From contig NZ_FNUS01000001.1 in NCBI RefSeq assembly GCF_900108025.1, positions 992,001 through 1,056,000 on the forward strand: 64,000 bases of DNA, read 5' to 3'. The DNA is from Halpernia humi. GTDB lineage: Bacteria; Bacteroidota; Bacteroidia; Flavobacteriales; Weeksellaceae. The notes under the pieces were generated by a model that was not told where the DNA came from, did not search any database, and saw only the letters and a list, made by a program, of their open reading frames with translations. Shown piece after piece: positions 36,994 to 54,431 of this stretch (the stretch's first letter is position 1; each line of letters opens with the position of its first letter). The translations under genes and the position numbers were made by a program.

Positions 36994-37356
36994 ATGAAAA
37001 TATTTTTTTTATTTGCATTTTTTCTATCAAATTATTGTTTGAGTCAAGTAAAAATTAATAATTTTGAAATTAAAGATTTAAGTGATAGCATAAAAACAAG
37101 CAATTATTTACATAAAGTGAATAATTGTGATTTATTACTTTTTGCGAATAAAAACTATAAGTTTTTCGCAGATCCAAATAACACTAAAAAGACTCAATTG
37201 ATTTTTTCTGAAATATCTAAAAGGACCAAACAAGATATTTTTATTTTGGTTCGTTCAAGATTTGGAAATGAATTTATTAAAACTTTAAGAGAAAAAAATC
37301 TAAAGGAACAAATTGAATTCTTAATTAAGCACAATAAATGTTCTAAAAAAGTATAA
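36994..37356 (+). CDS. Small exported protein of unknown function
   Basis: A 120-residue protein with a signal peptide (MKIFFLFAFFLSNYCLSQ). The mature part is basic, with two cysteines ('NNCDLL', 'HNKCSKK') and no recognised domain. It starts two bases after the GlmU-like stop codon, so it is probably translated from the same mRNA. The block of palindromic repeats follows immediately. Confidence 0.65.
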   Translation: MKIFFLFAFFLSNYCLSQVKINNFEIKDLSDSIKTSNYLHKVNNCDLLLFANKNYKFFADPNNTKKTQLIFSEISKRTKQDIFILVRSRFGNEFIKTLREKNLKEQIEFLIKHNKCSKKV

Positions 37357-37379
37357 AAGCAACATCATTTTTTTTAAAA

Positions 37380-38190
37380 CCCTGAAAGGGTGAAATTTTT
37401 ATAAACCAACCATCCTGCGTGTCCTTAAAACCCTGAAAGGGTGACACAAAAACAATTCCACCCCTTCGGGATTCATTTCTTAATGATTCTGGTTTTATAA
37501 CAATTTCATCCCTTCGGGATTCATTTTTTAATGATTTTGGTTTTATAATAATTCCATCCCTTCGGGATTCATTTTTTATGATTCTGATTTTACAACAATT
37601 TCATCCCTTCGGGATTTATTTCTTAATGATTCTGGTTTTATAATAATTTCATCCCTTCGGGATTTTCCCTTATCTCATTAAGGTTTTATAATAATTTCAT
37701 CCCTTCGGGATTTTCCCTTATCTCATTAAGGTTTTATAACAATTTCATCCCTTCGGGATTCACGCCGTCATAATAACTGCTAAAAAACAATTACATTCAA
37801 TTTAATCAGTTTTTAAATTGATGTTAAGTAAACCCTGAAAGGGTGAAATTTTTATAAACCGACCATCCTGCGTGTCCTTAAAACCCTGAAAGGGTGACAC
37901 AAAAACAATTCCACCCCTTCGGGATTCATTTCTTAATGATTCTGGTTTTATAATAATTTTATCCCTTCGGGATTTTCCCTTATCTCATTAAGGTTTTATA
38001 ACAATTTCATCCCTTCGGGATTCACGCCGTCATAATAACTGCAAAAAACAATTACATTCAATTTAATCAGGTTCTAAATTGATTTTAGATAAACCCTGAA
38101 AGGGTGAAATTTTTATCATAAAAATAATTTCATCCCTCCGGGAATCTTGCCATAAAGAGTATTTTTTTATAACAATTTCATGCCTTCGGG
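37380..38190. repeat. Array of palindromic repeats with 48-bp period
   Basis: Twelve copies of a palindromic core CCCTTCGGG (at 37462, 37510, 37558, 37605, 37653, 37701, 37749; 37915, 37963, 38011; 38134, 38182; the last two are variants). Within a block the spacing is 47 or 48 bases. The bases between cores are also similar (TTATAATAATTTCAT, CATTTCTTAATGATTCTGG). Five copies of a second palindrome CCCTGAAAGGG (37380, 37431, 37833, 37884, 38094) frame the blocks, in pairs 51 bases apart. Bases 37380-37500 and 37833-37953 are near identical (one difference), so the block has been duplicated with different unit numbers. No gene is seen in this 1071-base gap. Confidence 0.92.
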
Positions 38191-38242
38191 ATATGAAAAA
38201 CTTGCTTGATTAAAGATAAACTTTAATTTTTGCGAAATTTGC

Positions 38243-38375
38243 AGCCCGACTTGAGTGGAGCTCTTTTTTTGTGGAGCGCAGCGGAACAAAAAAAAGCGGG
38301 AACGGAAGGCGGAAAATGCTGCCCAAAAAATTCGTCATAAAACAATAGATTGCTACGCTTTACTCGCAATGACGT
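38243..38375. repeat. Probable dispersed intergenic repeat element
   Basis: A higher-GC stretch with facing segments (CTTTTTTTGT and ACAAAAAAAAG around GGAGCGCAGCGG) then GCGGGAACGGAAGGCGG and a tail ATTGCTACGCTTTACTCGCAATGAC that is itself a stem. It looks unlike the surrounding DNA, does not read as a real protein in any frame and resembles multicopy intergenic elements of Flavobacteriia. Copy number cannot be seen here. Confidence 0.5.
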
Positions 38376-47440: not shown

Positions 47441-47484
47441 ATAAAAAAGGGGTCAATTGTAAAAAATATTCAAAAAATAGATAA

Positions 47485-47749
47485 AATGTATGTAAATTTA
47501 GAGGGTAAAAAGAAATAAACCTTAAATTAATTACAATTTAAGGTTTATTTGAAACTTTTAAGTTTCCTTTTTTGAAATGGTGATTGAAAAAGTTCGAAAT
47601 AAATGAAAACAAGTAAAATACATCTAAATTTAGAGGGCTAAAATAAAAAACAATGAAATAATTGCAATTTCATTGTTTTTTGAAAACTTTTAGGTTTCTT
47701 TCTTTTTAAATGTAGATTAAAGAAGTTCGAAATAAATGAAAACAAGCCC
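47485..47749. repeat. Two tandem copies of a hairpin-bearing element
   Basis: Two copies of about 130 bases lie between amtB and pncB (47485-47613 and 47618-47749). They share TAAATTTAGAGGG at one end and AGTTCGAAATAAATGAAAAC at the other. The central hairpins (arms 47513-47528/47535-47550 and 47645-47659/47667-47681) have different stem sequences (CCTTAAA against AATGAAA) that both pair perfectly, around a conserved loop AATTAC/AATTGC. On the minus strand each could terminate pncB, as runs of T follow. No gene is seen in this 390-base gap. Confidence 0.8.
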
Positions 47750-54293: not shown

Positions 54294-54323
54294 GGAGCAT
54301 CCTAATTTTACATCGTCCGAAAA

Positions 54324-54431
54324 CTCTACCTGCTATCCACTCTATCTTTTTCTTTTTTTGTTAAAAAAAGAAAAAGGATGCCGTTCCTATCAGGGCTAGG
54401 TTCGGGTTTATTTTTTCTTTCAAAAAATAAA
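54324..54431. repeat. Probable dispersed intergenic repeat element
   Basis: A segment with the palindromic core TCTTTTTCTTTTTTT..AAAAAAAGAAAAAGGA flanked by CTCTACCTGCTATCCACTC and GATGCCGTTCCTATC..GGGCTAGGTTCGGG. It resembles multicopy intergenic elements of Flavobacteriia and is of the same general kind as 38243-38375. It lies at the right-hand joint of the proposed inversion. Confidence 0.5.

Follow-up and report, generated by a model that had tools for sequence, protein, structure and literature searches.

A palindromic array in Halpernia humi is probably a REP-like cluster of subclass 1.2 TnpAY1 transposases

Results

We analyzed a 64,000-nucleotide stretch of the Halpernia humi genome (the window), in which an array of short hairpins occupies 37379-38192. 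We consider it likely that this array is a REP-like cluster of TnpAY1 subclass 1.2; in our proposal the transposase would bind and join the units and would have spread them in trans, and the period would reflect a ruler of about 50 nt. Judged from sequence comparisons, its identity as the REP-type element of subclass 1.2 transposases is well supported. The proposed frame of the unit is a leader (consensus TATAATMATKNC), a variable 5-bp stem, a T[T/A]C triloop, and a trailing T, and the loci compared below show an element of this frame flanking genes assigned to subclass 1.2 across Bacteroidota, with stems that vary and a frame that stays. The original prediction had suggested that the array binds proteins, forms a series of hairpins in RNA, or belongs to a family of mobile repeats. 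Recurrence beside TnpA genes favors the last of these three readings, and protein binding comes with it, since the hairpin is probably bound, as single-stranded DNA, by a Y1 (HUH) transposase.

Within the window, the palindrome CCCTTCGGG has 10 exact copies, every one inside the array (37462-38019), compared to an expectation of 0.16 in shuffled sequence; none of 100 shuffles reached 10 copies. The twelve palindromes originally counted are completed by CCCTCCGGG at 38134 and GCCTTCGGG at 38182, both degenerate. Their steps are 48, 48, 47, 48, 48, and 48 bases in block 1, 48 and 48 in block 2, and 48 in block 3, which agrees with the predicted period of 48, once 47, in three blocks. A second palindrome, CCCTGAAAGGG, has five copies, all exact (expectation in shuffles, 0.41 with one mismatch allowed). 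It had been described as a distinct element that frames the blocks in pairs 51 bases apart. Two such pairs are present, the fifth copy is single, and the distinction itself did not hold: on the minus strand CCCTGAAAGGG reads ACCCT-TTC-AGGGT, with leader and loop as in the CCCTTCGGG units, and what had been taken for two palindromes is a single element facing either way. Read on its own strand, the window unit consists of the leader TATAA(T/C/A)AATTTC, a 5-bp stem, a TTC loop, the returning stem, and T; the stem is ATCCC/GGGAT in plus-strand units and ACCCT/AGGGT in minus-strand ones. The leader is worn in two of the five minus-strand copies and in two plus-strand copies. Plus-strand hairpins lie 47 to 48 bases apart, and the paired minus-strand ones 51.

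The array is made of three hairpin clusters, each led by minus-strand units and continued by tandem plus-strand units (Table 1). Cluster 1 has two minus and seven plus units, cluster 2 has two and three, and cluster 3 has one and two, both plus units being degenerate. These clusters are duplicates of one another that differ in unit number. As predicted, 37380-37500 and 37833-37953 are nearly identical (120 of 121 positions) while the numbers of units that follow are 7 versus 3, and a longer duplication of 195 bases (37377-37571 and 37830-38024) retains 92% identity. A second hairpin noted in each 48-base unit ("hairpin 1") is not general, being missing from most other arrays, and is outside our claim.

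TABLE 1 Hairpin units of the array and the adjacent RNA motif (window positions; R1 is the covariance model described in the text)
Feature	Position	Strand	Support
Hairpin ACCCT-TTC-AGGGT, leader TATAAAAATTTC	37379..37391	-	R1, 35.6 bits
Hairpin ACCCT-TTC-AGGGT, degenerate leader, 51 bases from first	37430..37442	-	R1, 19.4 bits
Hairpin ACCCC-TTC-GGGAT, 4 of 5 pairs	37460..37472	+	R1, 20.8 bits
Hairpin ATCCC-TTC-GGGAT	37508..37520	+	R1, 41.0 bits
Hairpin ATCCC-TTC-GGGAT	37556..37568	+	R1, 42.3 bits
Hairpin ATCCC-TTC-GGGAT, single 47-base step	37603..37615	+	R1, 40.0 bits
Hairpin ATCCC-TTC-GGGAT, leader TATAATAATTTC	37651..37663	+	R1, 43.3 bits
Hairpin ATCCC-TTC-GGGAT, leader TATAATAATTTC	37699..37711	+	R1, 43.3 bits
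Hairpin ATCCC-TTC-GGGAT	37747..37759	+	R1, 41.0 bits
Hairpin, block 2	37832..37844	-	R1, 35.6 bits
Hairpin, block 2, 51 bases from partner	37883..37895	-	R1, 19.4 bits
Hairpin ACCCC-TTC-GGGAT, 4 of 5 pairs	37913..37925	+	R1, 20.8 bits
Hairpin ATCCC-TTC-GGGAT	37961..37973	+	R1, 39.2 bits
Hairpin ATCCC-TTC-GGGAT	38009..38021	+	R1, 41.0 bits
Hairpin, block 3	38093..38105	-	R1, 32.9 bits
Degenerate unit ATCCC-TCC-GGGAA	38132..38144	+	Sequence
Degenerate unit ATGCC-TTC-GGGAT	38180..38192	+	R1, 26.5 bits
Flavo-1-like RNA motif upstream of trhO, outside array	38236..38320	+	Rfam, 36.2 bits

The genome contains six Y1_Tnp matches, five of them above the cut-off. Four short proteins among them (L019 to L022) fit TnpAY1 subclass 1.2, an assignment made here, as for all linked proteins, by the motifs defined in PMC6006769: all four have Y---Q--HH and WQ, and the strict DHVH occurs only in L021, the others reading DHFH, DHLH, and DHCH. 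A contig scan with these four proteins found 476 relatives; the best of them make up a set of 80 transposase loci, which come from many Bacteroidota and from a small number of metagenome-assembled genomes (MAGs) labelled otherwise. Y---Q--HH is present in 75 of the 80 and WQ in 79; the HUH motif, published as DH[IV]H, is present in 68 in the looser form DH[VIFLC]H. Four of the loci (L078, L083, L085, and L104) lie on MAG contigs labelled Chloroflexi, Anaerolineales, or Brocadia and carry this transposase with the same hairpins, which may reflect transfer or binning error.

Around these 80 genes, hairpins with a 5-bp stem and a triloop are concentrated. Within 400 bases of the gene we counted 395 in 61,706 bases (6.40/kb), compared to 383 in 555,674 bases (0.69/kb) at more than 1.5 kb, about nine times sparser. 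TTC (145) and TAC (105) are the commonest triloops near the genes; far from them TTC accounts for 36, AAA and TTT lead, and TAC is outside the ten types listed. Hairpins with 4-base loops, which served as a control for intergenic composition, are not enriched (0.76/kb near versus 0.72/kb far). At least one TTC or TAC hairpin lies within 500 bases in 62 of the 80 loci, for a total of 278, and such hairpins are present in 55 of the 67 loci whose flanks are both complete. Among the 18 loci that have none, at least seven carry other triloops and the rest have truncated flanks or no hairpins. The hairpins tend to point away from the transposase gene: of 133 upstream copies, 99 lie on the minus strand, and of 145 downstream copies, 89 lie on the plus strand. 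The leader emerges from these flanking hairpins even though it was not a selection criterion. Perfect stems were one, and for that reason we make no claim of covariation from alignment A2.

In family genomes, T[T/A]C hairpins occur within 400 bases of 28 of 30 subclass 1.2 genes, the L021 locus of our genome included (102 hairpins in 24,000 bases). They occur at 1 of 30 control Y1 genes, which are subclass 2.6-like and include our own L023 locus, the protein with which they were found (2 hairpins in 24,000 bases), and at 2 of 22 TrhO-match loci (2 hairpins). Of the four subclass 1.2-like genes in H. humi, L021, L022, and, with other leaders, L019 are flanked by stem-T[T/A]C-stem hairpins. The remaining one, L020 (C3:66991-67422), has another palindrome in its flanks, AACGGGCTTTAGCCCGTT, and the repeats of the group are therefore of more than one type. 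No TnpA gene of this genome is flanked by exactly the stems of the array. The TnpA at C3:258943-259380 (L021) is, by sequence likeness, the most likely server of the window array, since its flanking hairpins, ATAATTTC-ACTGC-TTC-GCAGT, share the TTC loop and the ATAATTTC leader and differ in their stems. Elsewhere, one TnpA gene (L066) is preceded by ACCCTTTCAGGGT and ATCCCTTCGGGAT, 51 bases apart, which have the window's two stems, ACCCT and ATCCC.

Loop type follows the transposase tree. On a quick tree of 82 transposases, in which 43 of 79 inner branches are open and one row (L143) is very long, the TTC or TAC loop of the 58 rows with a clear type required 8 changes, compared to a mean of 19.0 and a minimum of 14 in 200 shuffles; the other 22 of the 80 locus rows were left out, 18 having no TTC or TAC hairpins and 4 being mixed. 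Loop type may mark enzyme clades. PMC8266576 describes loop bases as essential in two of three class-2 systems, which makes it reasonable to suppose, by analogy, that subclass 1.2 enzymes would recognize the loop as well. Six loci (L091, L094, L113, L116, L131, and L140) have similar spacing with other triloops, among them AGC, AGA, GCT, and TTT; by eye, the AGC/AGT hairpins of L116 stand mostly at steps of 48 to 51 bases and the AGA/ATA hairpins of L113 at 51 to 52.

A covariance model, R1, was built from 88 hairpins of TnpA loci, none of them from the window. When R1 was run on the whole genome, the window units ranked first (43.3 bits, E = 1.3e-6); the best hits were the window array and an array on contig C10, followed by the L021 flanks. 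There were 24 hits at E <= 0.01 and 53 at E <= 10, on several contigs. Across 120 family genomes, 42 had R1 hits, 62 had TnpA, and 36 had both; these hit counts are minima, as scoring was limited to the best candidates. Hits were found in 36 of the 62 genomes with TnpA versus 6 of the 58 without (Fisher P = 3e-8), and 12 of the 13 genomes with at least five hits have TnpA (Fisher P = 0.002), P values that come from hand counts, ignore kinship, and include a contribution from the flanking copies themselves. One genome (G014) had nine hits although it is among the 58 without TnpA.

The spacing of the units recurs beyond the window. Same-orientation neighbors up to 150 bases apart in the 80 loci are separated by 47 to 53 bases in 104 of 152 cases, with a mode of 51, and this period is present in 47 of the 80 loci; in 29 family loci the corresponding count is 32 of 54. 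The ruler of about 50 nt is not purely same-strand. No plus-then-minus pair is at about 50 bases (0 of 31), and 6 of 25 minus-then-plus pairs are at 50 to 52 bases, four of the six coming from the related loci L095 and L100. The spacers themselves have an identity of 0.37 between loci, compared to 0.36 when shuffled. Conserved length without conserved sequence suggests that the distance is read by the enzyme. R1 also found a dispersed element of about 140 bases with two same-orientation hairpins 51 bases apart, GAACTCC-TTC-GGAGTTC and GCTCC-TAC-GGAGC, which was aligned at seven places (L168, L169, L171, L172, L173, L176, and L177) and seen again in L170. It looks like a would-be minimal pair element; equally possibly it is a DDE-type MITE that carries the hairpins, since its ends resemble imperfect inverted repeats.

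It is possible, though we think it distinctly less probable, that the array is a passive relic, in which units that once came from a TnpA-linked locus now change in number only by slippage or unequal recombination and the transposase has no current role. Within a locus, spacers frequently resemble each other (identity of at least 0.7 in 47 of 200 pairs, versus 0 of 1,570 pairs sampled between loci), blocks 1 and 2 of the window are near copies, and the TnpA genes of this genome do not have the array's stems, all of which is consistent with such a relic. Yet 21 of the 47 loci with the period hold at least two unrelated spacers at the 47- to 53-base step, which simple duplication does not give. 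The period is also found again in unrelated species, and genomes rich in units mostly have TnpA.

Counting copies genome-wide, as the original prediction proposed, gave 18 near-exact units (at most one mismatch) in the 3.12-Mb genome (G000), in addition to the R1 hits above. They are confined to three places: the window, on contig C2; the stretch upstream of purA that holds the second array (C10:30628-31064); and the interval from murG to ftsW, which has two copies (C5:164420-164493) (purA, murG, and ftsW are names read from open reading frames [ORFs]). An exact 14-mer was present in 16 of 320 family genomes, mostly at single sites, and formed arrays only in this genome; one of the sites (L043) resembles coding sequence. 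Exact 14-mer searches are too narrow for the frame of the element: the exact unit sequence is rare, and its frame is not. In G001, the one other genome of the genus that we compared, the array is missing at the orthologous place upstream of trhO while trhO is kept, and the second large array is likewise missing at the matching place upstream of purA. G001 has no subclass 1.2 gene at E = 1e-10 and two R1 hits. The difference between the two genomes may be a gain in G000 or a loss in G001. An ORF upstream of the array (36994-37356; a 120-aa exported protein with no match in Pfam or NCBIfam) is absent from G001 together with the array.

The place of the units between genes would also suit an element that acts as RNA: a transcribed chain of hairpins, lying between trhO and the ORF upstream, that serves as terminator, stabilizer, or signal for processing. 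We consider this reading of the prediction improbable. The transcript does fold better than shuffles (z = -4.9), but inverted repeats of any kind would be expected to do so. Units are found in either orientation, and they accompany TnpA genes rather than a single class of target gene; G001 retains trhO and lacks the array; and for the array no Rfam family reaches its cut-off. Weak microRNA matches from Rfam were set aside as chance.

The interval between the array and trhO, originally described as having no other gene, holds the Flavo-1-like motif of Table 1, whose score is under the Rfam cut-off of 42 bits. By eye, the motif is kept upstream of trhO in G001, where it persists without the array, and for L025 Rfam reported no Flavo-1 match at E <= 0.1; on both counts we dropped Flavo-1 as a marker of array sites. 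Another match in the window lies at 54322-54401 on the minus strand. Flavo-1 (RF01705) behaves as a dispersed repeat in this genome, with at least 62 matches in 3.1 Mb, 51 of them above the Rfam cut-off, among the 150 of 1,001 candidates that were scored. Our search of the literature found nothing on Flavo-1. The window also contains a 132-base direct repeat in two copies (47482-47746; 81% matches).

We give very little weight to the idea that the array is junk sequence expanded by chance and belongs to no family. The prediction had named as its refutation an array that is absent from related strains and never recurs. The absence was found at the orthologous place in G001, the single relative compared from the genus, and the narrow distribution of the exact 14-mer points the same way. 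Recurrence decides the matter: the unit returns in the same genome, in the 42 family genomes with R1 hits, and beside the TnpA genes of 62 loci, the same leader, loop, and spacing are found in many genomes, and R1 recovers the array independently. A CRISPR-like immune array, suggested by evenly placed repeats (about 26 nt) and the spacers separating them (about 22 to 24 nt), is most implausible: the array contains the same spacers more than once, its hairpins face both ways, units also lie scattered as single copies, and the gene linked to them encodes a Y1 transposase.

Discussion

Given the analogy with IS200/IS605 and REP transposases, we propose that the subclass 1.2 transposase would bind the hairpin in single-stranded DNA and cut and join beside it. 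In H. humi, TnpA would have spread the array units in trans, and their number may change through slippage, recombination, or the action of the transposase. The 48-base period would be one local case of a wider ruler that keeps same-strand hairpins about 50 nt apart. This distance may be fixed by a transposase dimer bound to two hairpins of a single strand, as the IS200/IS605 enzymes suggest. More tentatively, the ruler might be functional, such that the dimer needs two same-strand hairpins at a fixed distance. Each neighboring pair might then be a minimal single-strand transposon that leaves or enters as a circle of about 50 nt, arrays like that of the window might be a record of such events, and stems and loops might mark the transposase that owns each array across the phylum. 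We regard this further proposal, with all its parts taken jointly, as somewhat doubtful.

Subclass 1.2 has been described as lacking both REPs and IS ends, and the pairing proposed here, if true, would give it a first known substrate. It would also add a REP type distinct in foot, loop, and tandem arrangement, and would provide natural variants, from many species, in which the loop changes along with the transposase. A fixed distance with unrelated spacers would be a quantitative clue to how the enzyme works. Searches of the literature by subject words or by sequence, with most subscription journals and bioRxiv outside their scope, returned no report of the present repeat type among the papers listed, and the word Bacteroidetes is absent from the searched text of PMC8266576 and PMC2817692.

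The linked proteins resemble subclass 1.2 as surveyed by Quentin et al. (2018; PMC6006769) in their Y---Q--HH and WQ motifs, their length of about 150 aa, and their occurrence in Bacteroidetes. In that survey, a table enters "no" under REP for the subclass, which is said generally to be without typical terminal IS200 structures, whereas here most of the genes have hairpin clusters. The automatic REP search of the survey reported hairpins with a GT[AG]G foot. REP and BIME sequences of class-2 TnpAREP (RAYT) are alike in that short palindromes flank a Y1 gene and are scattered or clustered elsewhere, the loop or foot being recognized by the enzyme (PMC8266576, PMC6006769). They differ from the present element in transposase class and in foot: that of the flanking hairpins is AT[GT]NC, and in the window TTTC, TTCC, or TGTC, with no GT[AG]G. 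They differ in geometry as well. BIMEs are inverted pairs, while the present units are mostly tandem and in the same orientation on a ruler of about 50 nt. Inverse-pair geometry, as in BIMEs and REPINs, is approached where the window clusters join minus and plus units; most neighbors in the 80 loci are in the same orientation (152, versus 31 and 25 opposed).

The closest solved structures of the linked proteins, 2xm3, 2a6m, and 2vhg, place them near the IS200/IS605 transposases of IS608 and ISDra2. In IS608 and ISDra2, both end hairpins act on one strand. Those elements have one hairpin at each end in the same orientation, whereas here clusters of hairpins point outward from the gene. PMC8266576 describes contacts to a T of the hairpin loop for IS608 as well as ISDra2.

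CGTC-tagged palindromes are also found in Bacteroidetes, where PMC3733652 reports them without a dedicated transposase. The foot here is often TGTC, a listed variant of CGTC, and an A-T pair at the stem base is shared as well (PMC3733652). Those palindromes have a stem of 8 to 9 bp, a loop of 4 to 5 bases, and the tail CCA, whereas the present unit has a 5-bp core, a triloop, and the tail T, and its loop reaches 5 bases only when the closing C-G pair is taken to be unpaired. CGTC palindromes form mostly head-to-head dimers, with head-to-tail arrangements described as negligible (PMC3733652); the element described here forms head-to-tail arrays and has a linked transposase.
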